From positions 1 through 43,316 of the forward strand of contig MNGN01000002.1 of assembly GCA_001918745.1 (NCBI GenBank): a DNA stretch of 43,316 bases, written 5' to 3'. The stretch's first letter is position 1, and the number at the start of each line of letters is the position of its first letter. Below are positions 5,303 to 40,035 of this stretch, piece after piece. Below the pieces are notes generated by a model. The model saw nothing but the letters and a program-made list of their open reading frames with translations. It made no database searches and was not told the DNA's origin. The position numbers and the translations under genes are program-made. This DNA comes from Crenarchaeota archaeon 13_1_40CM_3_52_17 (GTDB taxonomy: Archaea > Thermoproteota > Bathyarchaeia > 40CM-2-53-6).

Positions 5303-5330
5303 CTATCCATGCAAATATATCTAAGGATAG
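5303..5330 (+). promoter_or_regulatory. Probable aceA promoter with flanking inverted repeat
   Basis: An AT-rich TATA-like box AAATATAT (5313-5320) lies between the inverted arms CTATCC and GGATAG. In archaea transcription begins about 25 bases after the box, which would fall close to the ATG at 5339 and give a nearly leaderless mRNA. A second AT-rich element, TTTATTAT, at about 5357-5364 could serve a TTG at 5396. The symmetric arms may be a regulator site. Confidence 0.35.
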
Positions 5331-5338
5331 AAATCGGA

Positions 5339-6748: not shown

Positions 6749-6792
6749 GCTTGCACTTATCCGACGAAGTCGAGAGTCGATCCGAGCTAGTA

Positions 6793-8364
6793 ATGGAACC
6801 GCGAACTCTTAGGGTCACAGACTCCAACATCCCTGGTTTAGAAGAGATACTGACACCTGATGCGCTGGCGTTTGTCGGAGATCTTGTCCTAGAATTCTTC
6901 CCACGTCTCGACTCGCTACTCCGGGAAAGAGTCCTTGTTCATGAGAATCTTCGAAACGGAACACTTCCCAATTTTCCGGAAGAGACACGTGGTATTCGGA
7001 ATTCCAACTGGAAGGTCAGACCTCCCCCGCCTGATCTTCGACAAAGACGGGTGGAAATCACAGGCCCCGTTGATCGGAAGATGATGATAAACGCGCTTAA
7101 CTCGGGTGCGGATGTTTACATGGCGGATTTTGAAGACTCCCACTCGCCCACCTGGAAAGGAACAGTTCAGGGCCAGGTCAACCTTCGAGACGCTGTTAAC
7201 CGGAATATCAGATATACTGGTGCTGATGGCCGAGAATACAATCTAGGGAGCAAACTCGCGGTTCTTATGGTGCGGCCCCGAGGCCTGCATCTCGTCGAGA
7301 AACATGTTCTAATCGGGTCCAAGCCGGTTCCCGCTTTCGTCTTCGACTATGGCCTCTTCCTCTACCACAACGCCAAGAAACTGATCAGCCAAGAAACAGG
7401 TCCCTACTTCTACATCCCCAAACTCGAGAGCTATCTAGAAGCCCGTCTCTGGAACGACATCTTCGACTATTCGGAGAAGGTGCTCAAACTTCCCCACGCT
7501 AGCATAAAGTGCAGCGTTCTCATCGAGACCATTCTAGCCGGGTTTCAGATGGACGAAATTCTCTATGAATTGCGTGATAGGATCACCGCGCTCAACTTCG
7601 GCCGCTGGGACTACATCTTCAGCCTGATCAAGTTCCTGGGCCACGACCCGAGGTTCCTAGTTCCTGAAAGACCGCTCCTCCCCATGACAACACCCTTCCT
7701 CAAGTCCTGCTCCGTTCTACTAGCTCAAACTTGCCATAAACGAGGCGCGCATCCGATCGGAGGAATGGCCGCCCAGGTTCCCATAAAAGGCGACCCTCAC
7801 TCCCAGGAAGCCATCGACATGGTTGTCGCCGATAAGAAGCGAGAGGCCGCTGAGGCATATGAGGGCGCTTGGGTTGCCCACCCAGGTCTGGTACCGGTTG
7901 TCAAGAATGTCTTCGACGACCATTCCATAGAATTCAAGAACGCTGACGCGATTGCGGAAGTAAGCCACGATGATCTCCTCAGAGTACCAGAGCCGAAGAT
8001 TAGCGAGCAGGCTCTGAGAGCAAATGTTGCCGTTAGCCTACGATATCTAGAATCTTGGCTGGGAGGTCTCGGTTGCGTGAGCATCAACAATCTGATGGAG
8101 GACACGGCTACTGTGGAGATCTGTAGGGCTCAGATCTGGCAGTGGATTCACCACTCCGCCAAGCTTCTTGACGGGCCCTCGATTACACGTGAGCTATTCC
8201 AAACCATCTTGAAGGAAGAAATGGCAAGAATAAGAGCAGGAGTCGGACTACAAGCCAACGAAGAGCCAAACTACAAGACTGCAGGAGACCTATTAGACTC
8301 ACTTGTGACCTGTGAAAGTTTTCCCGAATTCATGACGCTACTAGCTTACAACTATCTAGAATGA
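6793..8364 (+). CDS. aceB: Malate synthase A
   Basis: It condenses glyoxylate with acetyl-CoA to malate, completing the shunt begun by the preceding isocitrate lyase. It follows the A-type enzyme closely: VEITGPVDRKMMINALNSGA, MADFEDSHSPTW, the catalytic-Arg segment MVRPRGLHLVEKH, LNFGRWDYIFSLIK, HKRGAHPIGGMAAQVP, and the catalytic-Asp segment MEDTATVEICRAQIWQWIHH near the C-terminus. From ATG 6793 it is 523 aa (E. coli AceB has 533). A TTG at 6751, two bases after the aceA stop, would add 14 residues. Neither start has a good ribosome site. A-type malate synthase is more usual in bacteria than archaea, so ancestral transfer of the pair is possible. Confidence 0.95.
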   Translation: MEPRTLRVTDSNIPGLEEILTPDALAFVGDLVLEFFPRLDSLLRERVLVHENLRNGTLPNFPEETRGIRNSNWKVRPPPPDLRQRRVEITGPVDRKMMINALNSGADVYMADFEDSHSPTWKGTVQGQVNLRDAVNRNIRYTGADGREYNLGSKLAVLMVRPRGLHLVEKHVLIGSKPVPAFVFDYGLFLYHNAKKLISQETGPYFYIPKLESYLEARLWNDIFDYSEKVLKLPHASIKCSVLIETILAGFQMDEILYELRDRITALNFGRWDYIFSLIKFLGHDPRFLVPERPLLPMTTPFLKSCSVLLAQTCHKRGAHPIGGMAAQVPIKGDPHSQEAIDMVVADKKREAAEAYEGAWVAHPGLVPVVKNVFDDHSIEFKNADAIAEVSHDDLLRVPEPKISEQALRANVAVSLRYLESWLGGLGCVSINNLMEDTATVEICRAQIWQWIHHSAKLLDGPSITRELFQTILKEEMARIRAGVGLQANEEPNYKTAGDLLDSLVTCESFPEFMTLLAYNYLE

Positions 8365-15582: not shown

Positions 15583-16824
15583 TTATACTGTTGCCTCTAC
15601 CGAGACAGGAATTCTCGTTCCTGAGATTTGTTGCCAGTTCACCTGCGGACCTCCAAATGCCAGCTTGAACAAGCTGGCCATCAACAGCAGCTGGAAAGCT
15701 GAGAAGGCTATAGCGCCAAGGACCCAGGACCCTATTCCTTGGGAACCCTGAATGTCGATGCCCCGGTATCGACTGACCAAGAAATGGGTGATCACAAGCA
15801 GCGGGAAGGAAAGGACTATTGTCGTTAGGAGAGCAATCGCCGCAGAGATAGGTGTAGTGACTGCAAAGCTGAGGAAGGAGAAGAGTGCAATTGTCAAGAG
15901 TATCGGTGAAATTACATGAACGAAGAATTCGAAAGGAAAGACAACTTTGCCATATTTCCCCAGATTCCCGCTAAACAGCACACTTGAGTTTTGAAGCAAC
16001 GCGTGTTGGTTATTCATACCTCTTCTGAACTTGTGCTTCAACTTGGGTCCCAGCTTATCCGCTTCTGTCTCGAAGAACGGAACGTTTGACGCATATACAG
16101 CCCTGAACCCCTTTCTTCGCACTGTAAGAGTGAGTTCTACATCATCGCACACCGTCCCGGGACGAAGCGGTTCCAAGAGTTCCGTTTTGTATGCTGAAAG
16201 CTCGCTCTCGCACATGAACGGTGTGTCGATGCTTGCTTCTGCCAGCCTGATGGCAGTGTAGACTCGCCTGTAGCCAGATTCAAGATTTGACAGAAAAGAC
16301 CTCGATCCAACGGGAATCTCAACTCCTGAAACTGCACCGACCTCCGACCCGTCAATATTCTCTACAAGTCTTGACACCGAATCGGGGGAGAAGGTGACAT
16401 CAGCATCTGTTAGAATAAGTATTTCTGATCTAACCTTTCGCATTGCCTCGTTTATTGCCTCGCTCTTGCCTCGTCTGACAGGTTGTTCAATCAATACTAG
16501 GTTGACTTTGTGGCCATGTTCTTCCGCGAATCTATTGACAATGCTTCGCGTTTGGTCAGTTGAAGCACTATCAACCACGATTACCTCAAACTTTTCCCTT
16601 GGATAGTCGATCTGCAGGACGTTGTCTAGCTTCCGTCGTATGATCGAAGCCTCGTTATAGGTGGGAATAACTAAGGAAACCGAAGGGTTTGCTCGGCGCA
16701 GGCTTCTAGGTAACGGCGTCGTCTTGGCTCCGAGAAGTATCGCCAACCCCAGAGTGTAGACGACGATCACCGCAGCTGCTGTCAAGTAATAGATGATACC
16801 GAAGACGTAGGCGAGAAAACTCAT
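15583..16824 (-). CDS. Membrane-bound family 2 glycosyltransferase (processive type)
   Basis: One N-terminal membrane helix (~5-30), a cytoplasmic GT-A domain (~45-270) and three or more C-terminal helices (~290-395), the plan of hyaluronan/PNAG-synthase-like enzymes. Motifs: SLVIPTYNEASIIRRKLDNV, VVDSASTDQT, TDADV (DxD for the nucleotide sugar), CDDVELTLTVRRKGFR (ED-type base) and FRRGMNNQ in the place of QxxRW. It probably polymerises or transfers a nucleotide sugar at the membrane. It is the last gene of the minus-strand sugar operon, 14 bases after the polysaccharide deacetylase gene, a pairing also found in PNAG-type loci. Confidence 0.85.
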   Translation of the reverse strand: MSFLAYVFGIIYYLTAAAVIVVYTLGLAILLGAKTTPLPRSLRRANPSVSLVIPTYNEASIIRRKLDNVLQIDYPREKFEVIVVDSASTDQTRSIVNRFAEEHGHKVNLVLIEQPVRRGKSEAINEAMRKVRSEILILTDADVTFSPDSVSRLVENIDGSEVGAVSGVEIPVGSRSFLSNLESGYRRVYTAIRLAEASIDTPFMCESELSAYKTELLEPLRPGTVCDDVELTLTVRRKGFRAVYASNVPFFETEADKLGPKLKHKFRRGMNNQHALLQNSSVLFSGNLGKYGKVVFPFEFFVHVISPILLTIALFSFLSFAVTTPISAAIALLTTIVLSFPLLVITHFLVSRYRGIDIQGSQGIGSWVLGAIAFSAFQLLLMASLFKLAFGGPQVNWQQISGTRIPVSVEATV

Positions 16825-16838
16825 CGGTTCGCCACGCG

Positions 16839-18482
16839 CTATTTCTCCGAGCCTCTCGACAGTTCAATCACGTTCGAATCCACCAATTTCTCTACCTTGA
16901 AACCTTCACTCCCATATGCCGTCACAAACTCAAGCTCAAGCCCGCCTTCTCCCTTCTTATGGTCGGTTGATTGCAAGCTCGCTCTTCCGTCTGTCAAACT
17001 AATCTGGGACCGTTCTCGGTTTGCCCACCATTCGGCCAGTTCACCAAGAGTCACGATATCGCACGTGGGGTCAGAACGGAACGATAGGAGAAGGCGATGG
17101 TACTCCTCCTGCCCGCCTTCTAGCCCGAATTCGTAGTCTGGATGAACGAGGAGTACGCAGGCCCCTCCTACTCCCTTGACCCATCTTGAAAGGTCAATCA
17201 GTCGATCAACCGCCTCGGAGATGCCCAACCCAGCTACTCTAATGAGTTGATGGTCCTGAGGAAGCGAAACTGGAACCTCAACAATCCCCGAAATGGTAAA
17301 CGGAAAGATTGTTCCGACTCCGTGAGGTGTGAGAGAGGTGGGAGATAGCGCCTCCCAACTAGGGAGGGACGAGTCGAATTTGTAACCGGCCTCTCCAACT
17401 GCATCCAAGATCTCTCGGCTGTGTTGTAGAAGTGGGGATCTGAACCCTCGGATCTCACTCCTGGCGAGAACCCCAAGCAGTTCCTTGCATTCAATCAGCC
17501 TCTCCACCTTGTCCTTGTATCCCGCGAAGAGTAGCCGGCCATCATGCTTCGTATCATGTGCTCCAACCTCCCCCGCCTTCGCGAGATATGTCAAGAGTTG
17601 GGAAGATAGTGGGTAACGCGCACTTGGAATATTCCAAGTTGAGCGGATATTGAGTGCCCTCTCCACTTCAACAAGCCTGCTTGCACAATCTTCCAAACCG
17701 ACCTGGGTCTCAACATCGTGGCTGACCGCGAGGGCGTAAGCGCTGCCTCTCTTCCAGAAACCTATCCGTGGAATCGTCTTCCCTGAAGCGGCCAAAAGGC
17801 TGGCGAGGAAGATGGTTCTAAGACACTCGACAGGTCCAAGCATCTCCTCTCTGTACTGGGCAGAGCTCCTTTTCGACCGGAAGACTCGATTCCTAATGGA
17901 AGATGGGATCGAATCGTACGAGAAAGGCATCAATGCCAATACGCGGAATTTCCAGCTTGGATTCTCGTCCAATCGTGCGAAGACCAATCGGTAATACTCT
18001 GACACGAGGTCCGTTGAAAGAAGGTGGACATTCGATCCAAGAATCTGGTAGAGAATCGTGGTAGTATTGTCTTTCAAAACAGACCTAAGAGTTGATCCTG
18101 AGAACCGGTTTAGAGTGGTCCTCATAGAGACAAAAGTGCCTGGTGAAACAGGCAGATGAAGTAATGCTTCTTCTCGGAAGACCTCAAGGCCGAATCGTCG
18201 CGCGATATTCTTGGCCTCCTCGGGTCCGACTGGCGAAATGATCACGGGGCGTCCTGCCGGGAACGCCTCGCTGTCGGCGAGTCCATCTGTAAGAAGTAAC
18301 TGATCTGGATCTTGAAGATGCTCAAGAGTGTATGGGACTTTCCAGAAATCGGCTAGCTCCTTGAGAATTGCCAAGTTGCGAGGCTCACTTGACCCAAGCG
18401 CAATTGGAGAAGTGAGTGTTTTCGCCAAGCCTATTTCTTGACTCCGAGTCTCAACAGAAGCAATGGGCCTACGATTTGCCAC
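16839..18482 (-). CDS. Polysaccharide deacetylase-like (CE4) protein with N-terminal domain
   Basis: The 547-residue product has an unrecognised N-terminal ~230 residues and a NodB/CE4-like domain (~240-480): AVSHDVETQVGLED (equivalent of the Asp-Asp catalytic pair), GAHDTKHDG (metal histidines), RGFRSPLL, YKFDSSLPSW, and LLVHPDYEFGL (final catalytic His). The family removes N-acetyl groups from surface sugars, fitting an operon that makes acetamido sugars. The frame starts at 18482, overlapping the upstream gene by 52 bases. A TTG at 18428, just after the GT2 stop, is an equally likely start. The C-terminal ~60 residues are unrelated to the domain. Confidence 0.8.
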   Translation of the reverse strand: MANRRPIASVETRSQEIGLAKTLTSPIALGSSEPRNLAILKELADFWKVPYTLEHLQDPDQLLLTDGLADSEAFPAGRPVIISPVGPEEAKNIARRFGLEVFREEALLHLPVSPGTFVSMRTTLNRFSGSTLRSVLKDNTTTILYQILGSNVHLLSTDLVSEYYRLVFARLDENPSWKFRVLALMPFSYDSIPSSIRNRVFRSKRSSAQYREEMLGPVECLRTIFLASLLAASGKTIPRIGFWKRGSAYALAVSHDVETQVGLEDCASRLVEVERALNIRSTWNIPSARYPLSSQLLTYLAKAGEVGAHDTKHDGRLLFAGYKDKVERLIECKELLGVLARSEIRGFRSPLLQHSREILDAVGEAGYKFDSSLPSWEALSPTSLTPHGVGTIFPFTISGIVEVPVSLPQDHQLIRVAGLGISEAVDRLIDLSRWVKGVGGACVLLVHPDYEFGLEGGQEEYHRLLLSFRSDPTCDIVTLGELAEWWANRERSQISLTDGRASLQSTDHKKGEGGLELEFVTAYGSEGFKVEKLVDSNVIELSRGSEK

Positions 18483-19159
18483 CAGTCCTTGGACGGGGAG
18501 ATGTGCGAATATTTCTTGTTCTTCATTGCAGAGTAGTCTTTGGAAACTGGCCGCTCAGTAAATCTGTAACCCAATGTCAGTACTTTGTAGTGAAGATAGT
18601 ATTCTAGCTCGTACCCGTCCAGCCAGCTCTGCCATAGGTCGATGCGTGAATCTTCCACGATCGTGGCCTTGTAGGCTCGGAAACCGTTGGTGACCTCAGT
18701 GCACCGGACGCCGGTCATAAACGACCAGACGTATGGGAAGAGCCTAGTGAAGATACTTCTCAAGAAGGGATTCTTTTCTCGACGGCCGCCTGGGAGAAAC
18801 CGCGAGCCCTGAACGTAGTCGTATCCCTCGTCTATGATCGGCGCGGTTAGCCTGGGGATTTCGCGCGGATCATCTTTACCATTTCCGGCCATAATGACGA
18901 TGAGCTCGAAGTTGTTTTCGAGTGCGTATCTGTAACCTTGACGTATCGCATGACCAATACCCTTTCTGACCGGGTTCTGGATGGTCTTGATAGGAACTCG
19001 TATCCTTCGTCCGGCCTCTTCGATTGCTCCCAGCGTGACGAGTCCAGGTTTGTCTGCAACGACGCATACCTCATCGACGTAGCCAGGCTCAAACCTTTCG
19101 AGAACGGTTCCAATTGTTTCTGAATCTCCGTAGACCGGAATGATCGCTATGGTCTTCAT
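18431..19159 (-). CDS. Family 2 glycosyltransferase, dolichyl-phosphate sugar synthase-like
   Basis: A 242-residue GT-A domain without C-terminal membrane helices. The N-terminus KTIAIIPVYGDSETIGTVLE and the DxD region VIMAGNGKDDPREIPRL are typical of DPM-like enzymes that load a polyprenyl phosphate with a sugar. SRFLPGG, TNGFRAYK and WLDGYELEYYLHYK follow the same family. The first Asp of the usual DxD is replaced (AGNGKDD). Its product could feed the GT-C-like enzyme at 11668. ATG overlaps the preceding acetyltransferase stop by four bases (ATGA), so translation is coupled. Confidence 0.85.
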   Translation of the reverse strand: MKTIAIIPVYGDSETIGTVLERFEPGYVDEVCVVADKPGLVTLGAIEEAGRRIRVPIKTIQNPVRKGIGHAIRQGYRYALENNFELIVIMAGNGKDDPREIPRLTAPIIDEGYDYVQGSRFLPGGRREKNPFLRSIFTRLFPYVWSFMTGVRCTEVTNGFRAYKATIVEDSRIDLWQSWLDGYELEYYLHYKVLTLGYRFTERPVSKDYSAMKNKKYSHISPSKDWWQIVGPLLLLRLGVKK

Positions 19160-19665
19160 AGACGCGACGACCCTTTCGTGCCCCGTGTCTTCGCTGATGG
19201 GACCAGAGCGGGGAGGACCTTGCTTATGACTCGTGCGGGGTTGCCAAACGCGATGGCGTTGTCTGGTATGTCCCTAGTCACGACAGAGCCGGAACCGATT
19301 AGGGCGTTTTCTCCTATGGTCACTCCGGGGTTGATCACGCTTCCCGCGCCGATCGATGCGAACTTTTTCACCCTGGTCTCAAGAAGTTTCCATTCGCCGT
19401 GGGCCTTGGGGTACTTGTCGTTGGTGAATGTGACACTGGGTCCGATGAACACGTTGTCTTCTATGATTACTCCGGTTGGGATGAAGACGAATGGTCGGAT
19501 CTTGCAGTTGTCGCCGATCGTTACCCCCTCTTCGACATAGACGAACGCGTCTATCTTTGTGTTTTGTCCGATTGTGCAGCCGTAGAGGTTTACCTGGTCA
19601 TATACTCGAGACGACTGTCCGACTTTCGTCTTCTTGATGATAGAGTATTTCGGGCGTCTCCTCAC
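19156..19665 (-). CDS. Left-handed beta-helix acetyltransferase, WbpD/WlbB-like
   Basis: A 169-residue hexapeptide-repeat protein with turns such as IGQNTKIDAFVYVEEGVTIG, DNCKIRPFVFIPTGVIIEDN, IGPSVTFTNDKYPKAHGEW, IGAGSVINPGVTIGENALIG and the closing GSGSVVTRDIPDNAIAFGNP. The length and loop fit enzymes that acetylate the 3-amino group of UDP-2-acetamido-3-amino-2,3-dideoxy-glucuronate, using acetyl-CoA. Its neighbours are a Gfo/Idh dehydrogenase and a DegT aminotransferase, the two preceding steps of that pathway. It overlaps both neighbouring genes by four bases. Confidence 0.85.
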   Translation of the reverse strand: MRRRPKYSIIKKTKVGQSSRVYDQVNLYGCTIGQNTKIDAFVYVEEGVTIGDNCKIRPFVFIPTGVIIEDNVFIGPSVTFTNDKYPKAHGEWKLLETRVKKFASIGAGSVINPGVTIGENALIGSGSVVTRDIPDNAIAFGNPARVISKVLPALVPSAKTRGTKGSSRL

Positions 19666-20672
19666 TTTGCAGGTATCTCCTCGGCCAGGGGCATCTCAAC
19701 TCGCACGGTTCGCTCCTGACGAAGCGACTCCCGTGCGGCCTCTAAGACGCTGACGACCCGGGCTCCGAGAACTCCGTCTGAGAGGTTGGCAAAGGGTTTG
19801 GAGTCCAGGCTGCTTGAAATGCAGTCGACGAAGTGCGTAACTTCCTCTCTTAGCGTGTTGCTGGGAGTGATGGAGATCTGGGCACTGCTTGAAGCGTGAA
19901 GGACGCCTTTCTGCTCCGAGCAATCCAGGTACGCCATGCCCTTGCTTCCCACAACGGTAACATCTCTGCGCTTTTCCCTGTCGAGCCAGCTTACTTCTAC
20001 TTGAGCGGCCAGGCCACTTGGGTGTTCCGCAGTTATGAAGGCAACTTCTTCGTTCTCCTTAGTTCTGTATCCTTTTCCTCTGCATGTAATCTTGCTCGGC
20101 CACATGTCGAGAAGATAGTTGCATATGTCGAAGGGGTGAGGAGCTAGATCTGTGATGACCTCCCGGTATCCCTGTGGAGGTAGAAAACCAGTCCATCCGA
20201 ACCGGACATAGTAGAGCTCTCCTAATACTCCGGTGTTGATGGCTTGTCGGAGTTCTCTTACGCCGTTGTTGAATCTGTGAATGTGTCCCACGCAAAGAAC
20301 TTTCTTGTTCTCGTGCGCGATTTCGACGAGCTGGTATGCTTCCTTTGAACTGAGTGTGAGAGGTTTCTCCACCAGCACGTTCTTTCCATGCCTGAGAAAG
20401 TTTGAGGCAACTTCGAAATGGGTGGCGTTCGGTGTGCATATGTGTACTCCTGACAGCTGCGGGTCAGATAGAAGACCTTGGTAGTCTACGCGATAATCCA
20501 TGGCTCCAAATTCCTGTCGGCATTGAGCCAGCATTGTTGGCGAGTTGTCGACGACGGCGTGAAGCTGAACTCGTCCAGTAGTACGGCCTACGTCAAGGAT
20601 CTCTCGGATGACCTTCTTTCCCCAATAGCCTCCGCCTATGACGGCGATTCGGACAGGATTCGTAATGCTCAC
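19662..20672 (-). CDS. Gfo/Idh/MocA dehydrogenase, WbpB/WlbA-like
   Basis: A 336-residue NAD-dependent sugar dehydrogenase. The Rossmann motif IAVIGGGYWGKKVIREI is at the N-terminus, then VHICTPNATHFEVA, the family signature VLVEKPLT (~100-107), HIHRFNNGVRELR, and the catalytic-His region ITDLAPHPFDICNYLL. In the diacetamido-uronate pathway it oxidises C3 of UDP-GlcNAcA before transamination. The genes for UDP-GlcNAc 6-dehydrogenase and the C2 epimerase of the full pathway are not in this window. It follows the aminotransferase gene by 13 bases. Confidence 0.85.
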   Translation of the reverse strand: MSITNPVRIAVIGGGYWGKKVIREILDVGRTTGRVQLHAVVDNSPTMLAQCRQEFGAMDYRVDYQGLLSDPQLSGVHICTPNATHFEVASNFLRHGKNVLVEKPLTLSSKEAYQLVEIAHENKKVLCVGHIHRFNNGVRELRQAINTGVLGELYYVRFGWTGFLPPQGYREVITDLAPHPFDICNYLLDMWPSKITCRGKGYRTKENEEVAFITAEHPSGLAAQVEVSWLDREKRRDVTVVGSKGMAYLDCSEQKGVLHASSSAQISITPSNTLREEVTHFVDCISSSLDSKPFANLSDGVLGARVVSVLEAARESLRQERTVRVEMPLAEEIPAK

Positions 20673-20685
20673 CCTACTTCCTTCT

Positions 20686-21801
20686 CTATTCAGGGACGGG
20701 GGATCTCACTAGCCGGGAGACGGTCCTGACTTCTTCCTCTGTGATCGCTGGGTGAATTGGTAGACTTAGCACGTGTTCCGCCAGCCTCTCAGCTAGAGGA
20801 AATGCTCCTTCTGAGTATCGGTATCTTGCTCGGTAAGGCGCCTGAAGATGAATCGGTATCGGATAGTGAATAGCAGCCTCTACTCCGTTCTTCTCAAGGT
20901 GCAAGGCAAGCTGATCCCGGTGGTCGCTTCGAACAACGAACAGGTGATACACAGGAGTTTCGCCCGACATCTCCGCGGGCGGTAATTCCACACCGGGTGC
21001 ATCCGTCAGCTCTCTCCTGTACAAGTTCGCTATTCCTCTTCGAGCTTCGTTCCACTTGTCCAAACGTCTCAACTGGACCCTCCCTATAGCCGCGTTTACG
21101 GTGTTGAGCCTCGACGTGTAACCGATCCGTGCCATCGTATATTTCGATGCTCGACCACAGTCTCTGAAGCTGCGGGCCGTATCCGCGACTTGTTCGTCGT
21201 TGGTTACAATCATGCCGCCGTCCCCGCATACCGTCATGTTCTTGCTGGTGTAGAAAGAGAAACAGCCCACGTGTCCAAAGGAGCCTACTCGTCTTCCATT
21301 TTGCTCAGCTCCGTGAGCTTGACAGGCGTCTTCAATCATACTGATTCCCTTGTCGTCCGCAAGGTCTCGAAACTCGTTCATTCTTGCAGGATGTCCATAC
21401 AAGTGAACTGGAATTATCGCACGAGTCTTCTGGGTTAGGCTTGCTTCTACCTTTTGTGGATCAAGGTTGAAACCATGGTTTTCTACGTCTGCAAATCTAG
21501 GCTGGGCGCCGGCATGAATTATTGCGTTGGAGGTAGCGAAAAAGGAGAACGGGGTTGTAATGACCTCATCGATCTGATCTATACCCATCGACTGGAGGGC
21601 GATTTGGAGTGCAGCTGTTCCAGATCCTGTTGAGACAGCATATCGTGTGCCACAGTAACGGGCAAATTCCTCCTCGAATTTGTAGACACTCTCTCCCATG
21701 ACAAGCTTCTCATTTTGCAAGGAGACGGCGGCGGCTTGAAGCATCTCTTGATCTACGATGGGCCTCATGAGTGGAATCTTGAATCCATGTGTGACAGGCA
21801 T
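20686..21801 (-). CDS. DegT/DnrJ/EryC1 sugar aminotransferase, WbpE/WlbC-like
   Basis: A 371-residue PLP enzyme. PIPLMRPIVDQEM-like start, VSTGSGTAALQIALQSMGI (PLP phosphate region), VHLYGHPARM, IEDACQAHGAEQNGRRVGSF and the Schiff-base Lys in FYTSKNMTVCGDGGM. C-terminal AIHYPIPIHLQAPYRARYRY and LSLPIHPAITEEEV are diagnostic of the nucleotide-sugar branch. It should transfer an amino group from glutamate to C3 of the keto sugar made by the next gene's product. It is the promoter-proximal gene of the six-gene minus-strand operon, whose upstream region is shared with the divergent operon at 21935. Confidence 0.9.
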   Translation of the reverse strand: MPVTHGFKIPLMRPIVDQEMLQAAAVSLQNEKLVMGESVYKFEEEFARYCGTRYAVSTGSGTAALQIALQSMGIDQIDEVITTPFSFFATSNAIIHAGAQPRFADVENHGFNLDPQKVEASLTQKTRAIIPVHLYGHPARMNEFRDLADDKGISMIEDACQAHGAEQNGRRVGSFGHVGCFSFYTSKNMTVCGDGGMIVTNDEQVADTARSFRDCGRASKYTMARIGYTSRLNTVNAAIGRVQLRRLDKWNEARRGIANLYRRELTDAPGVELPPAEMSGETPVYHLFVVRSDHRDQLALHLEKNGVEAAIHYPIPIHLQAPYRARYRYSEGAFPLAERLAEHVLSLPIHPAITEEEVRTVSRLVRSPVPE

Positions 21802-21868
21802 TACAGTTTCAGCCCCACCGGCGGGATCAGTTGTGAGGACCGTTTCCTTGCTCGTACTTCAGCACCTT

Positions 21869-21931
21869 AGCGATTGAACTTCGTTTCTGAGTTTTAACTC
21901 TTCCTAGACGAAATCGTTACTTTCAATCGCT
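21869..21931. promoter_or_regulatory. Divergent promoter region with nested inverted repeats
   Basis: The 133-base gap separates two operons. A perfect 10-bp inverted repeat, AGCGATTGAA (21869-21878) and TTCAATCGCT (21922-21931), encloses a smaller one, GAGTT-TT-AACTC (21889-21900), whose centre (TTTTAA) could be a TATA element in either direction. The right arm ends three bases before the ATG at 21935. This is the arrangement of an operator controlling both operons, though no regulator gene is nearby. Confidence 0.45.
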
Positions 21932-21934
21932 TTA

Positions 21935-22204
21935 ATGACAAAGAAATCCGAAGATATCGGATTGCTGTACAAACTAGACGAGACCGGAATTGGATTAAAT
22001 ACCGCGCGACCAGAATTCCTACTTCAGACTGTTACCAGGAAACGGAGGCAAGCAAAATCGAAGTTGAATCCAGTTGTTATCCTTGAAGGCTTGCCCGTTA
22101 TTCGCATTCCATCCAACCCCGAGAATCTTGACCACGAAATTAAGTCCATTGTCAAGAAAACATTCAATTCTTTTCAGGTGGCTCTAGAGGCCGTTATCTT
22201 ATGA
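21935..22204 (+). CDS. Small protein of unknown function heading a coupled operon
   Basis: An 89-residue, mostly polar protein with basic stretch RKRRQAKSKL (~36-45), a hydrophobic strand-like middle (NPVVILEGLPVIRIP, ~46-60) and an amphipathic C-terminal helix (HEIKSIVKKTFNSFQVALEA). No membrane segment, cysteines or known motif. It is not a PqqD by its conserved positions, although PqqD-like proteins often accompany the nucleotidyltransferase family downstream. ATG 21935 lies three bases after the right arm of the divergent operator, so its mRNA may be almost leaderless. Its stop overlaps the next start (ATGA). Confidence 0.6.
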   Translation: MTKKSEDIGLLYKLDETGIGLNTARPEFLLQTVTRKRRQAKSKLNPVVILEGLPVIRIPSNPENLDHEIKSIVKKTFNSFQVALEAVIL

Positions 22205-23259
22205 AGATGAATTTTCTTGAAGAAATAGGTGGCGTGAAAACGGCTCGAAGGGAAGCGGAGTCCATTCTCCTTGCCACCGCACTGTTGAGAAACAACAAAC
22301 TCCTGGTAAAGGATGAAGAAAGGATGCTGAAACTTGCCATGAAGAATAAGGTTCTCTTACGAGCCGCTGGCCTGATCACACTCCCATCCGAGGCATTCGA
22401 CGAGGCAACGAAGGATGCCCGTGAAGCCTTTGACCTGTATGATCAGATGAGCGAATTCTTCACCAAGCGCGGAGTCTCTTTCGTTGCGATAAAATCCTTT
22501 GACTCTCTCCCCGACATCGGTCACGATATTGACCTCCTCGTTCCCTCGCACGTAGAGCTCTTGTTAGCAGAGAAACTTTTGGTGAATGAATATCGAGTCC
22601 GCACTCAAGGGCTCACTCACTGCGACAGGTTGCTAGGAAAATTCAGCTGCTTTCTGCCAGGATACAAACACGACTTTGAACTCTACCCAACAATTAGCCA
22701 GCTTGGCGAGACCCACTTGAACCCAAATCAAGTCCTTCATCATCGTCGGAAGGCGACGCTCCAAGGACATGTTGTATGGATGACTTCAGATTCTGATAGA
22801 GTGCTAATACGCGTCATTCATGCGATGTTCCGACACAATTTCCTCAAGCTCTCAGACATATTGGATTTCCTGAAGCTAATTGAGACTGCAAGCACTCAGG
22901 AGGTGTTTGAGAAGATCGACAACGCTCGAATCGGCGACGCCTTCATCTTCTATCTGGCATCAATAGAGCGCTTCCTGAGAGCCTGCCGAGTCGAGAACGA
23001 AACCTTTCAAGAAGTAAAGAAGCTGGCCCAGGAAAGATTCGGCAAAGACAGATTGCGATTACTCAGACGTGATAAGCTCGTCCTTCCCTACAGGATTCCT
23101 ACCATGGCAATCATCATGCTCTTCTTGGTCAAGGCCGCAAGAGAGGCTGCAAGTGCTAGATGGAGAAGCGCCATTTCCTGCGCAGTGGCTCCTCCACTCA
23201 TTATTCTCGATTTCATCAGCGCCGCGCTCAGAGCAGGTGGAAGGGGAGGAGTCTGGTAA
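22201..23259 (+). CDS. Nucleotidyltransferase-fold protein, NTP_transf_5-like
   Basis: A 352-residue protein. The stretch GVSFVAIKSFDSLPDIGHDIDLLVPSHVE, residues ~91-118, fits the catalytic core of the uncharacterised nucleotidyltransferase family: a Lys-containing strand, then an Asp-x-Asp pair (DID, 109-111) that would bind metal. The helical N-terminal ~80 residues and the middle histidine-rich part (NQVLHHRRK, VIHAMFRHNF) are also typical. A hydrophobic C-terminus (~295-335) may touch the membrane. Family members occur in polysaccharide and peptide-modification loci; their substrates are largely unknown. Translation is coupled to both neighbours (ATGA upstream, TAATG downstream). Confidence 0.65.
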   Translation: MKMNFLEEIGGVKTARREAESILLATALLRNNKLLVKDEERMLKLAMKNKVLLRAAGLITLPSEAFDEATKDAREAFDLYDQMSEFFTKRGVSFVAIKSFDSLPDIGHDIDLLVPSHVELLLAEKLLVNEYRVRTQGLTHCDRLLGKFSCFLPGYKHDFELYPTISQLGETHLNPNQVLHHRRKATLQGHVVWMTSDSDRVLIRVIHAMFRHNFLKLSDILDFLKLIETASTQEVFEKIDNARIGDAFIFYLASIERFLRACRVENETFQEVKKLAQERFGKDRLRLLRRDKLVLPYRIPTMAIIMLFLVKAAREAASARWRSAISCAVAPPLIILDFISAALRAGGRGGVW

Positions 23260-23906
23260 TGAGAAAAATCCTCGTAACGCTGAGCGGGACCCATGGTTCT
23301 GGAAAATCCACCAACGCTGGGAAGTGCTACTATCTCCTCAACAAGGCGGGCTACAGATTTTCCTATTTGAGAAACCAGGATCTACTTGATCCCTTCGGTT
23401 TTATCGTCAGGCGAGTTGCCAGGGTACTCCACACCGACCCAACCGAGGTGGAGAAGCGACGGCCGACCAGAATTCTTTGGTCCCTCTACCTGCTCTTCAT
23501 ATATTGCCCTGTTCTCATTGGAGGAATACGTCTCCGGAGACTACTTGGCTACAGCACTGTATGTGACAGATACGTTTACGACATCATTGTAGCTTTTGGT
23601 GATTATGATAGGCAGGCTCCTCTAGAGTCCTTACTCTTGAGGCTGATCCCTCGCCCCGATGTGTCATTTGTGATGGACGCACCCGAGCAGCGGATTCTAG
23701 TGGATCGCCCCGAGCACACAGCTGAGTTCATTCGTAAAGAAAAGTGGCTCTACCTGAAACTCGTGGACGCCTTCAACCTAACCAAGATCAATACTAGCGA
23801 CCCTCCGCCCGTCGTTTGGAGCAAGATAATAACACGTGTCAAGAGCGCCCTCGACGAAGGACCCTCGACGAAAGAAATCACCGTCCAAGCTGTTACCCAA
23901 GAATGA
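23259..23906 (+). CDS. P-loop kinase, thymidylate-kinase-like
   Basis: A 215-residue kinase. The Walker A loop SGTHGSGKST is at residues 9-18, and CDRYVYDIIVAFGDYD (~102-117) carries the DRY motif that positions phosphate in dTMP kinases. VSFVMDAPEQRILVDRPEH (~135-153) holds the strand and LID region. Unlike true dTMP kinase it has a hydrophobic insertion (SLYLLFIYCPVLIGGIRLRR, ~75-94) and lacks clear thymidine-binding residues, so the acceptor is probably different. ATG 23259 overlaps the previous stop as TAATG. An open frame from 23160 reaches further upstream but lies inside the previous gene. Such dTMP-kinase-like proteins occur in surface-polymer clusters. Confidence 0.75.
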   Translation: MRKILVTLSGTHGSGKSTNAGKCYYLLNKAGYRFSYLRNQDLLDPFGFIVRRVARVLHTDPTEVEKRRPTRILWSLYLLFIYCPVLIGGIRLRRLLGYSTVCDRYVYDIIVAFGDYDRQAPLESLLLRLIPRPDVSFVMDAPEQRILVDRPEHTAEFIRKEKWLYLKLVDAFNLTKINTSDPPPVVWSKIITRVKSALDEGPSTKEITVQAVTQE

Positions 23907-25405
23907 AAACCCTAGTGATAGGCATAGACTCAGCGTCTCCTAATCTGATCCAAAATTGGATAGACCAGCTTCCAAACCTTCGATCAATCTTCGAAACTGG
24001 TGCGCACGGTGTCTTGAAATCAATCGTCCCTCCCGAAAGCGTCCCCGCGTGGCAGTGCTTTGCCACTGGGATGAATCCCGCCAAGATCGGAGTCTACGGA
24101 TTCACATACATAGGAAGAAATCGGCAACTAAAGTTCGGCAAGACTACCCCAGAACTTGGATGCATCTGGGACATTTGCTCGAAGAGAGGAATCAAGGTCG
24201 GAGTCTTTAACGTTCCAGGAACGTACCCGCCTTACCCGGTAAAAGGCTTCATGGTGTCGGGTTTTCCCGTTCCATCGCACAAGACTTGGTCCTACCCGGA
24301 TGACCTGATGAAGAGACTCGACTCCGCTGTCGGCGGATACGAAATCGACGTTCCGCTTACGAAACCCACAAACATGAAAGGGGGAGAAAAGGCATACCTC
24401 CCTCAAGTTCAACGATTGCACGACAAGACCCTCCAGGCCGCGAAGCTGCTGATGGAATGGTACGACCCTGACCTCTTCGTAATGACCTTCCAAGCGATAG
24501 ACCTAGTCCATCACGACTTTTGGAAATACATGGACACCCCAGACTCGCCCTTTTCCAACGTATTGCACGATTGGTACATCACTATGGACATTGCCATCGG
24601 AGAACTCCGCAAACTAGTGGGCGCAGAAACTCATGTGCTGGTCCTCTCCGACCACGGATCGGCACCTGTGTCGTCCGCCTTGTACATCAACCAGTACCTG
24701 GAATCGAACGGCCTTCTTACGCTCAAAGGTCCTGTTAAGAATAAGGGCGAAACCTACACGAAACTCAGGAAGTGGGTCTTGAAGACCCTCCCGCCAGGCG
24801 CCATCGCAAGCGTCTACAAAATGACCCCGGGCTTCATCGGCCACAGGCTCACTGAATCGGCCGCGATAGAACGAACACTCCGGGGCCTGATTGAGAATAT
24901 CGATTGGGATAGAACTCTGGCTTTCTCCACAGGAGGACACCAGGCCCACATATACGTCACCTATGACCTGATCAACAAGCTCCAAGATAGTAGGGGCTCT
25001 CAATCCACGACAGACGTCGTGGACAAGCTCTGCAACCTGATGAGCCAGCTCACCGATCCAAAGACAGGGGAAAAACTTTCCCCGATATTCCATCTCAAAG
25101 AAGACGCGTTTAAGGGACCCTTCCAATACGATGCACCTGACCTCTGCGTCGAGTTCTACACAAAGAATGAGAAGGTCCAAGTTAACCCGAGGCTGGGAAC
25201 CCAGCAGCTCTGGAGCTCTTCGCCACATTTCTCATCAATACACACCCGGGAAGGGTTCTACGGGATAACAGGACCAAAGATTAGACACGGGGTCAAGCTG
25301 GATGCGAACCTTCTAGACTTAGCTCCAACGCTACTGAGATTGCTGAATGTCGAAGCTACGTCCGACTTTGACGGTCGAGTCCTCGATCAGGTCATCGCGA
25401 ATTGA
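23903..25405 (+). CDS. Alkaline-phosphatase-superfamily phosphodiesterase
   Basis: A 500-residue type I phosphodiesterase/nucleotide pyrophosphatase-like enzyme. Metal motif VIGIDSASPNL (D9), nucleophile region PPESVPAWQCFATGMNP (S46 in the position of the usual Thr/Ser), GVYGF, then DLVHHDFWKYM (D200, H204) and VLSDHGSAPV (249-255). A further metal His is expected around residues 340-450 (GHQAHIYV or PHFSSIH). Archaeal relatives cluster with surface glycan genes and may cleave or transfer phosphodiester-linked groups. There is no signal peptide, so it likely works in the cytosol. ATG overlaps the kinase stop (ATGA); it is the last gene of the coupled operon. Confidence 0.85.
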   Translation: MKTLVIGIDSASPNLIQNWIDQLPNLRSIFETGAHGVLKSIVPPESVPAWQCFATGMNPAKIGVYGFTYIGRNRQLKFGKTTPELGCIWDICSKRGIKVGVFNVPGTYPPYPVKGFMVSGFPVPSHKTWSYPDDLMKRLDSAVGGYEIDVPLTKPTNMKGGEKAYLPQVQRLHDKTLQAAKLLMEWYDPDLFVMTFQAIDLVHHDFWKYMDTPDSPFSNVLHDWYITMDIAIGELRKLVGAETHVLVLSDHGSAPVSSALYINQYLESNGLLTLKGPVKNKGETYTKLRKWVLKTLPPGAIASVYKMTPGFIGHRLTESAAIERTLRGLIENIDWDRTLAFSTGGHQAHIYVTYDLINKLQDSRGSQSTTDVVDKLCNLMSQLTDPKTGEKLSPIFHLKEDAFKGPFQYDAPDLCVEFYTKNEKVQVNPRLGTQQLWSSSPHFSSIHTREGFYGITGPKIRHGVKLDANLLDLAPTLLRLLNVEATSDFDGRVLDQVIAN

Positions 25406-25493: not shown

Positions 25494-26522
25494 CGAATAG
25501 CCATCAACGGATTCGGCCGCATCGGAAGATGCTTTCACCGTGCGATCTTGGAGAACAAATACCCGGACATCGAGGTGGCCGCGATAAACTCGACTTCCGC
25601 CCCTCGCACACTCGCACATCTCCTGAAGTATGACTCGTCCTACGGAACTCTTCTATCGGACATTAGCTGGGACTCGGAAGCCATCACGGTTGCAGAAAGG
25701 AGGATCCCTTGCCTCAGCCAAACGAACGCGTCAGAAATAGACTGGAATAGTTTCGAAGTCGACGCGGTACTCGAGAGCACTGGGCAACGTCTCCAACGAG
25801 AGGATCTCAACACATACATCAGTAACGGGGCTGGAAGGATACTGATCAGCGCTCCTTTCGAAGACGCCGACATCATCCTCATCCCTGGCTGTAATCTGGA
25901 AACATACGATCCGAATCTCCACAGAATCATCTCCATGGGGTCGTGCACAACTAACTGTCTCGCTCCATGTCTTGAGGTCTTGGACGGTGCTTTCGGAGTT
26001 GCACACGGCTTTGCCACAACCATACATTCGTACACCAGTGACCAGAGGTTGCTCGATGGGTCTCACGAGGATCTTCGAAGGGCCAGAGCGGCCGGCCAGT
26101 CGCTCATACCGACCCGGACTGGTGCCACTCAGACTATCGGAAAAATCCTGCCTCGTCTTAAAGGGAAAATTACCTGCTCGGCGATAAGAGCGCCGACAGC
26201 GACGGTCTCGCTTCTCGATCTAGTCGTCCAGTGCAAGAAAGAAGTGAACAGGAATGAAGTAAACAGTGTCTTCCAGGATGCATCCACCGGGAAACTGAAA
26301 GGAATCCTTGCAGTATCTGACGAGCCATTGGTATCGGTTGATTACAAGAAAAATCCGCATTCAGCGGTCATAGACGGCCTCTCTACAGGAGCGAATGGTT
26401 CAATGGTCCGCATATTGGCCTGGTATGACAACGAATGGGCATACTCAATGCGATTAGTCGAAACATTACAGCAAATCAATCGTTCTGAAATCATGGTACC
26501 CAACCCGACTGGAAAGTCCTGA
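25491..26522 (+). CDS. gap: Bacterial-type (class I) glyceraldehyde-3-phosphate dehydrogenase
   Basis: It oxidises and phosphorylates glyceraldehyde-3-phosphate with NAD(P), or the reverse in gluconeogenesis. The product of 343 residues has IAINGFGRIGR (NAD loop, residues 3-13), the active-site Cys in GSCTTNCLAP (C152), catalytic His in HSYTSDQRLLDG, DLRRARAAGQSLIPTRTGA (phosphate sites) and YDNEWAYSMRL near the end. This is the bacterial/eukaryal family, whereas most archaea use the unrelated-looking archaeal GAPDH, so lateral transfer is likely. The residue after the first cofactor strand (INSTSAP) lacks the usual Asp, suggesting relaxed or NADP preference. Initiation appears to be at CTG. 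Erythrose-4-phosphate dehydrogenase is an alternative function. Confidence 0.85.
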   Translation: MRIAINGFGRIGRCFHRAILENKYPDIEVAAINSTSAPRTLAHLLKYDSSYGTLLSDISWDSEAITVAERRIPCLSQTNASEIDWNSFEVDAVLESTGQRLQREDLNTYISNGAGRILISAPFEDADIILIPGCNLETYDPNLHRIISMGSCTTNCLAPCLEVLDGAFGVAHGFATTIHSYTSDQRLLDGSHEDLRRARAAGQSLIPTRTGATQTIGKILPRLKGKITCSAIRAPTATVSLLDLVVQCKKEVNRNEVNSVFQDASTGKLKGILAVSDEPLVSVDYKKNPHSAVIDGLSTGANGSMVRILAWYDNEWAYSMRLVETLQQINRSEIMVPNPTGKS

Positions 26523-36756: not shown

Positions 36757-37923
36757 CTATTTCTTGACTGGCGTCTGCCAGCTGAAGGGATAGTTTGGAT
36801 CGTCAAACTTCTCAGCGACCGAGGTTACTTTCAACGGCTTCTTCGTCTCGATCATGATCGCAAGCTCGTTTGTCGAGTCCTTTCCGAGGCTCGCCTCGAC
36901 AGCTCCTGGCTGTGGTCCGTGGTGTACTCCTCTCCGGTGGAGAGTGAACGATCCTACTTCTATTCCTCGACGGCTGCTGAAATCTCCGCTTACGTAGTAG
37001 AGGACTTCGTCGCTGTCAATGTTGCTGTGGTTGTACGGGACAGGTATGGCTTGGGGATGGTAGTCGAGTTTTCGCGGAACGAATGATAGTACGTCGAATC
37101 CCGGTGCTTCGAAGGTCTGGTGAATGGGTGGAGGTTGATGGACCCGTCCGGTTAGGGGCTCGAAATCGTTGACGTTGAAGATCCATGGATAGAGATAGCC
37201 GTCCCAGCCGACAACATCGATGGGGTGGTAATCGAAAACATAAGACATCAACGAGTTGTCGATCTTGACCCGAACCTCAAACTCCCCGGAGTCGCCATGC
37301 GGCACAAGTTTCTCAGGTCGCCGAAAATCTCTATCGGCGTAAGGCGCCAGCTCTACCAGCTGGCCGTAGTCGTTTCTGTATCGTTTGGGAATCTCGATAG
37401 GCCCCGCGGATTCGATTACCATGAACCGGTTGTCCTTTCCATCAAGATGGATCCGGTACGTCGTTCCTCGCGGGACGACGACGTAGTCTCCCTCGTGGAA
37501 GGGGAGGATTCCGAATACAGATTCTAGGCTTCCTTTTCCTTCGTGGATGAAGTATAGCTCGTCTCCTTGGGCGTTTCTGAAGAACCAGTCCATGCCCTTG
37601 GAGGGTCGGACTGTTGAGACGAACACGTCATCATTGTAGAAGAGGGGCTGGCGTCCTTCAACCGGGTCCTTTGCCAGTTCGGTGTTCTTGGTGCGGACGT
37701 GGTGGTGTCGATGGAGGTCTGGTTGCCATCGAGTGATCGCGAGTTCCTTGAGCTTCTTGATGTGGGACACTTTGGTCGGGGGATTGATGTGGTAGAGGGT
37801 TGAGTAGACTCCGGAGAACGCTTCGGTCCCGAAAACCTCTTCCTGATACAATGACCCATCTGGCTTTCGGAACTGTGTATGCCTCTTGGCGGGAAGTTTG
37901 CCGAGGCTGTAATAACTAGGCAA
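36757..37923 (-). CDS. hmgA: Homogentisate 1,2-dioxygenase
   Basis: It opens the ring of homogentisate with O2, giving maleylacetoacetate. The 388-residue cupin begins KRHTQFRKPDGSLYQEEVFG, then INPPTKV, FVSTVRPSKGMDWFFRNAQG and YVVVPRGTTYRIH. The Fe-binding part shows IPVPYNHSNIDSDEVLYYV (His and Glu) and LHRRGVHHGPQPGAVEASLG (~325-345, His). This is the shorter bacterial/archaeal form (human enzyme 445). It lies six bases after the FAH gene, a compact operon. Confident. Confidence 0.9.
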   Translation of the reverse strand: MPSYYSLGKLPAKRHTQFRKPDGSLYQEEVFGTEAFSGVYSTLYHINPPTKVSHIKKLKELAITRWQPDLHRHHHVRTKNTELAKDPVEGRQPLFYNDDVFVSTVRPSKGMDWFFRNAQGDELYFIHEGKGSLESVFGILPFHEGDYVVVPRGTTYRIHLDGKDNRFMVIESAGPIEIPKRYRNDYGQLVELAPYADRDFRRPEKLVPHGDSGEFEVRVKIDNSLMSYVFDYHPIDVVGWDGYLYPWIFNVNDFEPLTGRVHQPPPIHQTFEAPGFDVLSFVPRKLDYHPQAIPVPYNHSNIDSDEVLYYVSGDFSSRRGIEVGSFTLHRRGVHHGPQPGAVEASLGKDSTNELAIMIETKKPLKVTSVAEKFDDPNYPFSWQTPVKK

Positions 37924-37929
37924 TCGTGG

Positions 37930-38940
37930 TCACTCTGAGGGTTTCTCGGGGCGTATAACTTTGTTTCTCAACTGTCCCAGTCTTTCTATCTCAAGCTCTA
38001 CGGTGTCTCCGGGTTTGAGCCAGGGATGCACCTCTTGTCCAAGTTCCAAGAGTGATCCTGTTCCGACGGTCCCGGAACCGAACACTTCTCCGGGTTGGAG
38101 CTGAACGGATTGCGAGGCCCGGGCTATCATCTGCGGGAAGGTCCAGTGCATCTTGTCCATGTTCCCGATCGAGAGTTGCTTGTTGTTGATTTTGGCGGTC
38201 ATCTTGAGGTTGAACTTGCCAGGCGCTGTCTTCCGGTCTTGTAGCTCGTCTGGGGTGACGAGCCACGGTCCGAGTGAGGTGGCGAAGTCCTTGGCTTTGG
38301 CTGGGCCTAGTCCGATTTTCATCTCGCCCACCTGAACATCCCGTGCACTCCAATCGTTCATTATAGTGTAGCCTGCGATGTGGGCTTCTGCTTCCGATTC
38401 TGGTATGTCCATTCCACCTCGCCCGACTACGCACGCAATCTCAAGCTCGTAGTCGAGAGCCTTAGCGTAGGATGGATAGGGGACGTTTTCTTCTGGACCG
38501 TAGATTACGTGCGGGTTTGAGTAGTAGAAGGCGGGAAACTCGTACCATTCTTGGGGCATTGGAAGGCCTCGTCGGGCTCGGGCCGTCTTGACATGTTCTT
38601 CGAATGCATAGAAATCTCGCAGGGTCGGAGGGTCTGGAACTGGAGCTTTGAGCCCGGCATCTTCGTTCCGGATCATGAATCGGTTGACATGCTCTGGTGG
38701 GATTCGGTTAAAGATCCTCCACGACACGGATTGGAGATCGTCCAGGAGTTTAGGGTTCCGGGATAAGATCCCTCTGATAGTGATCGCAGCTGGTAGGTTT
38801 TGAATTGATCGAGGAGCTGGAATCTTCAGCTTCTCAGCTGTGCCGGCAACTCGTTCGATGTCTAGTATCCATTCTCCCCACAGCAGCCCGGTACGGGTCT
38901 TGGTCGCTGTCTTCTTTGTGCTGTAGGCGACCAGTTTCAT
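37930..38940 (-). CDS. Fumarylacetoacetate hydrolase family protein
   Basis: A 336-residue FAH-fold hydrolase, the size of the bacterial short fumarylacetoacetases. Motifs: YPSYAKALDYELEIACVVGR (metal Glu pair), IAGYTIMNDWSARDVQVGEM (metal Asp), GLGPAKAKDFATSLGPWLVT (Lys/Asp) and GEVFGSGTVGTGSLLELG near the C-terminus. It would release fumarate and acetoacetate. No maleylacetoacetate isomerase lies in the operon, and archaea lack glutathione, so it may hydrolyse maleylacetoacetate directly. Gaps of six bases on both sides show tight co-transcription with hmgA and hppD. Confidence 0.88.
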   Translation of the reverse strand: MKLVAYSTKKTATKTRTGLLWGEWILDIERVAGTAEKLKIPAPRSIQNLPAAITIRGILSRNPKLLDDLQSVSWRIFNRIPPEHVNRFMIRNEDAGLKAPVPDPPTLRDFYAFEEHVKTARARRGLPMPQEWYEFPAFYYSNPHVIYGPEENVPYPSYAKALDYELEIACVVGRGGMDIPESEAEAHIAGYTIMNDWSARDVQVGEMKIGLGPAKAKDFATSLGPWLVTPDELQDRKTAPGKFNLKMTAKINNKQLSIGNMDKMHWTFPQMIARASQSVQLQPGEVFGSGTVGTGSLLELGQEVHPWLKPGDTVELEIERLGQLRNKVIRPEKPSE

Positions 38941-38946
38941 CTGAGG

Positions 38947-40035
38947 CTAGAGGTTTCCCCGTTTCGCCTGTTCCGCTTCTATGGACTGGAAGAGGGCTTT
39001 GAAGTTGCCTTTTCCGAACGATTCGCTTCCCTTTCTCTGGATGAGCTCGAAGAACAGGGTGGGCCGGTCTTGGAGGGGTTTGGTGAATATCTGGAGCATG
39101 TAGCCCTTCTCATCCTTGTCCACCAGTATGCCAAGACGTTTTAGATCATCTATCCTCTCCGAGATTCCTCCGACGCGCTTAGGAAGTTCTGCATAGTAGC
39201 TGTCGGGTGTGCGCAAGAATTCTATTCCGCGCTCGGCCAATCTTGCGACGGTGGCGACGAGGTCTTCGGTGGATATGGCGAGGTGCTGGACTCCAGCGCC
39301 CTTGAAGTAGTCTAGATATTCTTGTATCTGCGACTTTCTCTTTCCGGCGGCCGGCTCGTTGATCGGGAACTTGACAGTCCCACTGGGATTGCGCATGACC
39401 TTGGAGCGGAGGGCGGAGTATTCGGTGCTGATGTCCTTGTCGTCGAAGCTGATGAGCTGTGTGAACCCGAAAACGTTGCCGTAGAATTCTACCCAATAGT
39501 CCATCTTTCCCTCTTCCACGTTAGCGACTACGTGATCGACGTGTTTCAGGCCGACAGACTCCTCTTTCCCTGGGAATGGTGTGTATCCGGGGGCGAATAT
39601 TCCGCGATAGTCGTGACGTTCGATGAACGTATGAACGGTATCGCCGTAGGCTGCGATAGCGGCGCCGCGGATGGATCCATGATCGTCTTTGAGTACTTTT
39701 GGTGCTTGTATTCCCTTGGCGCCACGCCGAAGGGCTTCTTTGTATGTCCAGTCAACATCCTTGACGCGCATGGCGACGTCGGCTACACCGTCTCCGTGGG
39801 TGATTACGTACCTGGAGATCGGATGGTCTGGAATTAGGGAGGAGGTTAGTAGGAGTCTGATATCGCCTTGCTGCATGAGATAGGAGGTCTTGTCTTTGAC
39901 TCCTGTCTCAGGTCCGCTGTAGGCGACGGGTGTGAAGCCGAAGCCGTTTTTGTAAAAGTAACTGGCTTGTTTCGCGTTTCCAACGTAGAGCTCAACGTAG
40001 TCTATTCCCTCGATAGGCAACGCGTCGTTCTTCAA
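38947..40035 (-). CDS. hpd: 4-Hydroxyphenylpyruvate dioxygenase
   Basis: A non-heme Fe(II) enzyme that converts 4-hydroxyphenylpyruvate to homogentisate with O2. At 362 residues it has two vicinal-oxygen-chelate halves. The N-terminal IEGIDYVELYVGNAKQASYF starts the first. Fe ligands in the second half are His in GLKHVDHVVANVEEG (~165-179), His in GAGVQHLAISTEDL (~242-255) and Glu in PTLFFELIQRKGSESFG (~327-343). The C-terminal GKGNFKALFQSIEAEQAKRG is diagnostic. It is the first gene of the five-gene operon. A promoter with symmetric elements lies 25-45 bases upstream. Confidence 0.95.
   Translation of the reverse strand: MKNDALPIEGIDYVELYVGNAKQASYFYKNGFGFTPVAYSGPETGVKDKTSYLMQQGDIRLLLTSSLIPDHPISRYVITHGDGVADVAMRVKDVDWTYKEALRRGAKGIQAPKVLKDDHGSIRGAAIAAYGDTVHTFIERHDYRGIFAPGYTPFPGKEESVGLKHVDHVVANVEEGKMDYWVEFYGNVFGFTQLISFDDKDISTEYSALRSKVMRNPSGTVKFPINEPAAGKRKSQIQEYLDYFKGAGVQHLAISTEDLVATVARLAERGIEFLRTPDSYYAELPKRVGGISERIDDLKRLGILVDKDEKGYMLQIFTKPLQDRPTLFFELIQRKGSESFGKGNFKALFQSIEAEQAKRGNL

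Follow-up and report, generated by a model that had tools for sequence, protein, structure and literature searches.

Gene content of the locus

The window analysed here is a 43,316-nucleotide stretch of DNA, contig C14 (MNGN01000002.1) of the 1.78-Mb metagenome-assembled genome of a soil archaeon of the Bathyarchaeia (Crenarchaeota archaeon 13_1_40CM_3_52_17). It carries a cassette of three genes, o2, o3 and o4, whose products are predicted to be a nucleotidyltransferase (NTase), a P-loop kinase and a phosphodiesterase. All three are real open reading frames (ORFs):

22201-23259, + strand: o2, divergent NTP_transf_5-like (PF14907) nucleotidyltransferase, 352 amino acids, as judged from orthologue profiles and predicted fold
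23259-23906, + strand: o3, thymidylate-kinase-fold P-loop kinase of non-housekeeping type, 215 amino acids, as judged from profiles, tree and motifs
23903-25405, + strand: o4, cytoplasmic phosphodiesterase of the alkaline phosphatase superfamily (PF01663), 500 amino acids, as judged from profile and catalytic residues

The o2 and o3 genes overlap by 1 nt (TAATG) and o3 and o4 by 4 nt (ATGA), and most relatives likewise have tight junctions, from -4 to +3 nt. Ratios of nonsynonymous to synonymous substitution rates (Ka/Ks), determined against L032, the closest of the six close relatives compared (L032-L037), were 0.075 for o2, 0.111 for o3 and 0.083 for o4. Thus, the three genes are all strongly constrained by purifying selection. 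An earlier note on this DNA had described four proteins made together through three overlapping junctions. The TAATG and the second ATGA overlap stand, while the first ATGA falls away since the 89-amino-acid ORF upstream is no gene (see below), which leaves three products and two coupled junctions.

The nucleotidyltransferase and the kinase

No PF14907 match was obtained in the profile search with o2 of the window itself. Its assignment as NTP_transf_5-like, already made in the earlier note, is probably right, though it comes only through its relatives: 7 of 14 orthologues matched PF14907 (best E 5.2e-10), as did 10 of 12 proteins of a broader set of relatives (best E 1.4e-18). Residues K98, D109, D111 and D219 are invariant over distant relatives, and D109 and D111, which form a DxD motif, over 12 diverse ones. 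With the AlphaFold model of o2 (predicted local distance difference test score, pLDDT, 78), the best Foldseek matches were the nucleotidyltransferase-fold structures 5uvd and MenT1 (E 3e-4 to 8e-4). The protein is therefore predicted to have a nucleotidyltransferase fold with a DxD motif. With the PF14907 family it has in common the above-noise matches of its relatives, this predicted fold and the K...DxD motif; it differs in being too divergent to score, in having a hydrophobic C-terminus (two hydrophobic helices, residues about 301-345) and in its thymidylate-kinase-fold partner.

The family profile of o3 matched thymidylate kinases in the PDB (5xbh, E 2.3e-23), while o3 itself scored only 16.6 bits with the TIGR00041 thymidylate (dTMP) kinase equivalog, for which the cut-off is 83.25. 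The genome encodes a separate housekeeping dTMP kinase (109 bits; contig C42, 7899-8435). In o3, which has the P-loop GTHGSGKS, the motif DRYVYDIIVAF (DRYxxD) replaces the DRYxxSxAYQ of housekeeping enzymes. The housekeeping signature DR[YS]xx[SA]SxAYQ was present in 11 of 12 housekeeping rows of the alignment, and a DRYxxSxAYQ-type pattern was not found in the row of the genome's own housekeeping kinase; [DE]RYxxD occurred in the cassette kinases and in most of the other kinases paired with an NTase (see below) that had a recognisable motif. In a tree, the cassette kinases formed one clade (support 100/100) and the housekeeping kinases another (100/99), although a sister relationship of the two was not rejected (approximately unbiased test, p-AU 0.245). 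Before DRYxxD, at residues about 72-96, o3 has a hydrophobic helix, its maximum 19-residue Kyte-Doolittle mean being 2.09, compared with 0.67-1.34 in housekeeping kinases. Eleven of the 12 cassette kinases had such a helix, as did 17 of the 31 pair kinases, but none of the 12 housekeeping kinases did. The structural model of o3 was poor (pLDDT 60), too poor for a fold search.

By these comparisons, o3 shares with thymidylate kinases (PF02223/TIGR00041) the predicted fold, the P-loop, the position of the DRY motif and the lid region, but lies outside the housekeeping clade and is set apart by its DRYxxD motif and hydrophobic helix. This bears out the description of an odd dTMP-kinase-like protein in the earlier note, whose hydrophobic insertion is real and corresponds to the helix; clustering with housekeeping dTMP kinases, which that note had named as grounds for abandoning its proposal, was checked, and o3 clusters apart.

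Two other kinase types were seen. A second non-housekeeping thymidylate-kinase-fold kinase, which we call o3b, is encoded elsewhere in the same genome (contig C30, 1392-2048) and in relatives (L033, 605-1525; L043, 11154-11897); in several of them it belongs to the same glycan locus, and in some it adjoins a further glycosyltransferase gene. A P-loop kinase with the motif GTVGSGKS, distinct from o3, occurs in NTase/glycan loci (L140, 4433-5107; L065, 7957-8739).

Pairing of the two genes across Thermoproteota

We surveyed 398 genomes sampled from a single phylum, the Thermoproteota, for PF14907 matches (many of them under the curated family cut-off) lying within 5 kb of a match of at least 70 bits to the broader kinase profile A6. 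This gave 29 pairs in 26 genomes, as compared with about 0.4 expected from genome size, and the two genes were on the same strand in 27 of the 29. Profile A6 includes four kinases already found beside an NTase (L063, L064, L071 and L077), but it cannot by itself create proximity because it contains no NTase sequence. Three single-ORF fusions were found, and they comprise both domain orders: kinase-NTase in L077 (PF02223 46 bits, PF14907 67 bits) and L151 (32 and 59 bits), and NTase-kinase in L162 (PF14907 51 bits; kinase half 26.4 bits, just under the 27-bit cut-off). The fused L077 protein had no match when searched against plasmids. Recognisable glycosyltransferases were encoded at 16 of 28 pair loci, compared with none of 12 housekeeping-kinase loci and none of 8 random loci. 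Several pair loci without a glycosyltransferase match had flippase (PF01943), dTDP-sugar or other glycosyltransferase genes when selected neighbours were compared with Pfam. Thus, the conserved core is the kinase and NTase pair, sometimes fused, across Thermoproteota, which the earlier note had missed.

All three protein families are known. In the literature searched, from which most subscription journals were missing, we found no description of the o2/o3/o4 combination or of the phylum-wide pairing; PF14907 or NTP_transf_5 was not named there, and nothing was found on archaeal glycosylation involving a thymidylate kinase and a nucleotidyltransferase.

The phosphodiesterase and conservation of the cassette

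With o2 as query, 14 related loci were found, 13 labelled as archaea and one as 'bacterium'. The order o2-o3-o4 was kept in 13 of them, two of which end within o4 at the end of a contig; the exception is L041, where the kinase gene is inverted and lies downstream. Three further genomes of the genus (L075, L194 and L200) also kept the order. In the samples searched, close o2 orthologues were confined to this Bathyarchaeia family. A lack of co-occurrence in relatives was the other ground on which the earlier note would have abandoned its proposal; o2, o3 and o4 do occur together there, without the 89-amino-acid protein.

The phosphodiesterase call for o4 was also right: the protein matched PF01663 with 125.8 bits (E 4e-36; gathering score 23), and no equivalog model matched it. 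Residues D9, S46, D200, H204, D250, H251, H442 and H447 are invariant in 13 orthologues. D200 and H204 align with the D/H pair of phosphonoacetate hydrolase, and S46 with a position occupied by Thr in structure 3szy of this enzyme and by Ala in 3t02; the remaining residues we take to be metal ligands. The predicted metal-ligand and nucleophile residues are thus intact. The catalytic residues and fold family are those of PF01663 type I phosphodiesterases/nucleotide pyrophosphatases and of PhnA (3szy), from which o4 differs by having Ser instead of Thr as the predicted nucleophile. No hydrophobic segment was found in o4 on Kyte-Doolittle analysis.

Close orthologues of o4 were found only in this Bathyarchaeia family among the samples searched, and more distant full-length relatives occur elsewhere in the class. 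Those that were checked had neighbours of unrelated kinds (Na+/H+ exchanger, HD domain, tRNA ligase), which makes o4 by itself a poor guide to the pathway. None of the 28 pair loci sampled beyond this family contained o4. It is therefore not an obligate part of the module; it is a lineage-specific third component, added in this family.

Neighbouring genes

Upstream of the cassette, a companion operon runs in the opposite direction:

20686-21801, - strand: DegT/PseC-like sugar aminotransferase (PF01041 405 bits; TIGR03588 270 bits, under cut-off)
19662-20672, - strand: Gfo/Idh/MocA oxidoreductase, UDP-GlcNAc 3-dehydrogenase-like (NF040723 E 9e-48, under cut-off)
19156-19665, - strand: hexapeptide-repeat acetyltransferase (PF00132 E 7.7e-27)
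18431-19159, - strand: GT2 glycosyltransferase, AglJ-like (PF00535 E 5.7e-7; TIGR04182 AglJ E 2.1e-11, under cut-off)
16839-18482, - strand: weakly polysaccharide-deacetylase-like protein (TIGR03006 E 0.021), syntenic where the contigs of relatives reach
15583-16824, - strand: second GT2 glycosyltransferase (PF00535 E 1.2e-28)

By its predicted functions, this operon is consistent with production of a 3-acetamido sugar for a surface glycan. The assignment of the cassette neighbourhood as a glycan locus is supported.

Two features lie between the operons:

21802-22200, no strand: intergenic region between divergent operons, probable promoter region
21935-22204, + strand: o1, 89-amino-acid ORF, a chance intergenic ORF and not a gene

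The ATG of o1 sits inside a block of conserved DNA. In L032-L035, the homologous ATG is followed by a stop within 14-20 codons, and in L036-L037 the frame shifts into a different one. In the window, the frame is held open by a 1-nt insertion peculiar to it (GGATTAAATA, compared with GGATAAATA in all six relatives). Neither Pfam nor NCBIfam gave a match for o1, nor did an Rfam scan of the region. Since stops and indels break the frame in all six close relatives, o1 is not a gene and not the cluster member that it had been taken for; a structured leader was likewise rejected. What is conserved in this region are two blocks, TTTTAACyCTTCCTAG at 21892-21907 and GGAATTGGAT(T)AAATAC at 21986-22002, both present in L032-L037 and recognisable in L038, without a conserved frame. 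The region is thus probably a promoter region serving the divergent operons. In L039, L040 and L042-L045, the position of o1 is occupied by a GT4 glycosyltransferase gene, directly upstream of o2 and in the same orientation.

Directly downstream of the cassette (25500-26522) is a GAPDH gene, syntenic in several close relatives, whose product fits type I models (TIGR01534 349.5 bits, cut-off 367) rather than the archaeal type II model (16.5 bits). Farther away, adjoining genes for isocitrate lyase and malate synthase A (5267-8364), both above the equivalog cut-offs, represent a glyoxylate shunt in a Bathyarchaeon. A cluster at 36757-40035 comprises genes for a 4-hydroxyphenylpyruvate dioxygenase (above cut-off) and for homogentisate-dioxygenase-like and fumarylacetoacetase-like proteins, an apparent pathway of aerobic tyrosine degradation in an archaeon. 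An RHS repeat-associated core domain protein is encoded at 2421-3176 (TIGR03696, above cut-off).

Discussion

The pairing of kinase and NTase across the phylum, with fusions in either order, strongly suggests that they catalyse consecutive steps on one substrate. Our best reading, which we put forward tentatively, is that a glycan or lipid-linked precursor receives a phosphate from the kinase and that the NTase adds a group to this phosphate, giving a phosphodiester. In the cassette, the hydrophobic helix would keep o3 at the membrane, and o3 would phosphorylate a hydroxyl or phosphate of a glycan precursor, probably lipid-linked because of the hydrophobic helices of both proteins. Using an NTP or a sugar nucleotide, o2, with its hydrophobic C-terminus, would then form the diester by attaching a nucleotidyl or glycosyl group. 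In this Bathyarchaeia family only, the soluble o4 may cleave such diesters, for editing, release or turnover.

We found a single characterised precedent for this, and for the phosphate-linked surface modification suggested in the earlier note, in pseudomycoidin. In the account given by a review (PMC9266682), the kinase PsmK phosphorylates a Ser, and PsmN, a nucleotidyltransferase homologue, is needed for the addition of hexoses to the phosphate; the same account does not exclude that nucleotidylation comes first. The two systems, likened here by described function, each comprise a kinase and a nucleotidyltransferase homologue, and PsmK and PsmN together yield a glycosylated phosphate; unlike o2 and o3, they act on a peptide, in the bacterial biosynthetic cluster of a lasso peptide.

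Several points weigh against this phosphodiester proposal. The order, kinase and then NTase, is one that we infer by analogy; the structural model of o3 was poor, and it is hydrophobicity that suggests its association with the membrane; the pair count includes many sub-threshold PF14907 matches; and o4 is missing from every sampled pair locus outside the family.

A close rival, only a little less probable, is the activation of a sugar to a nucleoside diphosphate (NDP) sugar. The kinase would form a sugar phosphate, o4 would act as phosphomutase or pyrophosphatase, and o2 would make the NDP-sugar for the neighbouring glycosyltransferases. A kinase and a nucleotidyltransferase, sometimes fused, are the usual logic of sugar salvage. 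In fucokinase/GDP-fucose pyrophosphorylase the two activities are likewise found in one protein, though the folds of both its domains are, as far as is known, unrelated to those of the pair. This explains the fusions about as well as the phosphodiester proposal does, glycosyltransferase genes adjoin the cassette, o4 is soluble, and the alkaline phosphatase superfamily includes phosphomutases. However, the predicted fold of o2 is that of polymerase-beta-type NTases, whereas sugar nucleotidylyltransferases have a GT-A-like one; the only matches of o4 are to PF01663 phosphodiesterases; and soluble substrates would give no reason for the hydrophobic helices in o2 and o3.

Those helices, as well as the glycan locus, would fit a role in lipid-carrier metabolism, in which o3 would phosphorylate a polyprenol or polyprenyl phosphate, and o2 and o4 would load or unload the carrier. 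The thymidylate-kinase fold normally transfers a phosphoryl group to a phosphate, which favours this idea. It is nevertheless improbable: the dolichol kinases known from archaea are membrane proteins of an unrelated kind, the NTase would have no clear role, and many loci have two kinases, o3 and o3b, which suggests substrate diversity.

A toxin-antitoxin or other conflict system, in which the NTase would modify a nucleic acid and the kinase would counteract it or be coupled to it, is brought to mind by the presence of the MenT1 toxin among the best structural neighbours of o2. It is very unlikely in view of the fixed synteny within a glycan locus, the strong purifying selection, the glycosyltransferase genes that lie beside the pair at many loci of the phylum, and the fact that no cognate antitoxin-like gene was seen. 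A view of o3 as no more than another thymidylate or nucleotide kinase, in a cluster assembled by chance, agrees with its fold and weak TIGR00041 match, but is hardly credible given the separate housekeeping enzyme, the distinct clades, the replacement of DRYxxSxAYQ by DRYxxD and the conserved synteny.

In a broader view, which we hold to be less likely than not, the pair would represent a widespread, undescribed two-enzyme pathway of Thermoproteota for attaching groups through phosphodiester bonds to surface glycans or to their lipid-linked precursors, and single lineages would have added components such as o4. For many surface-glycan genes of archaea, no chemistry has been assigned. The pairing gives PF14907, an uncharacterised family, a partner that recurs and a reaction that can be tested, and it cautions against annotating thymidylate-kinase-like genes of glycan loci as dTMP kinases.

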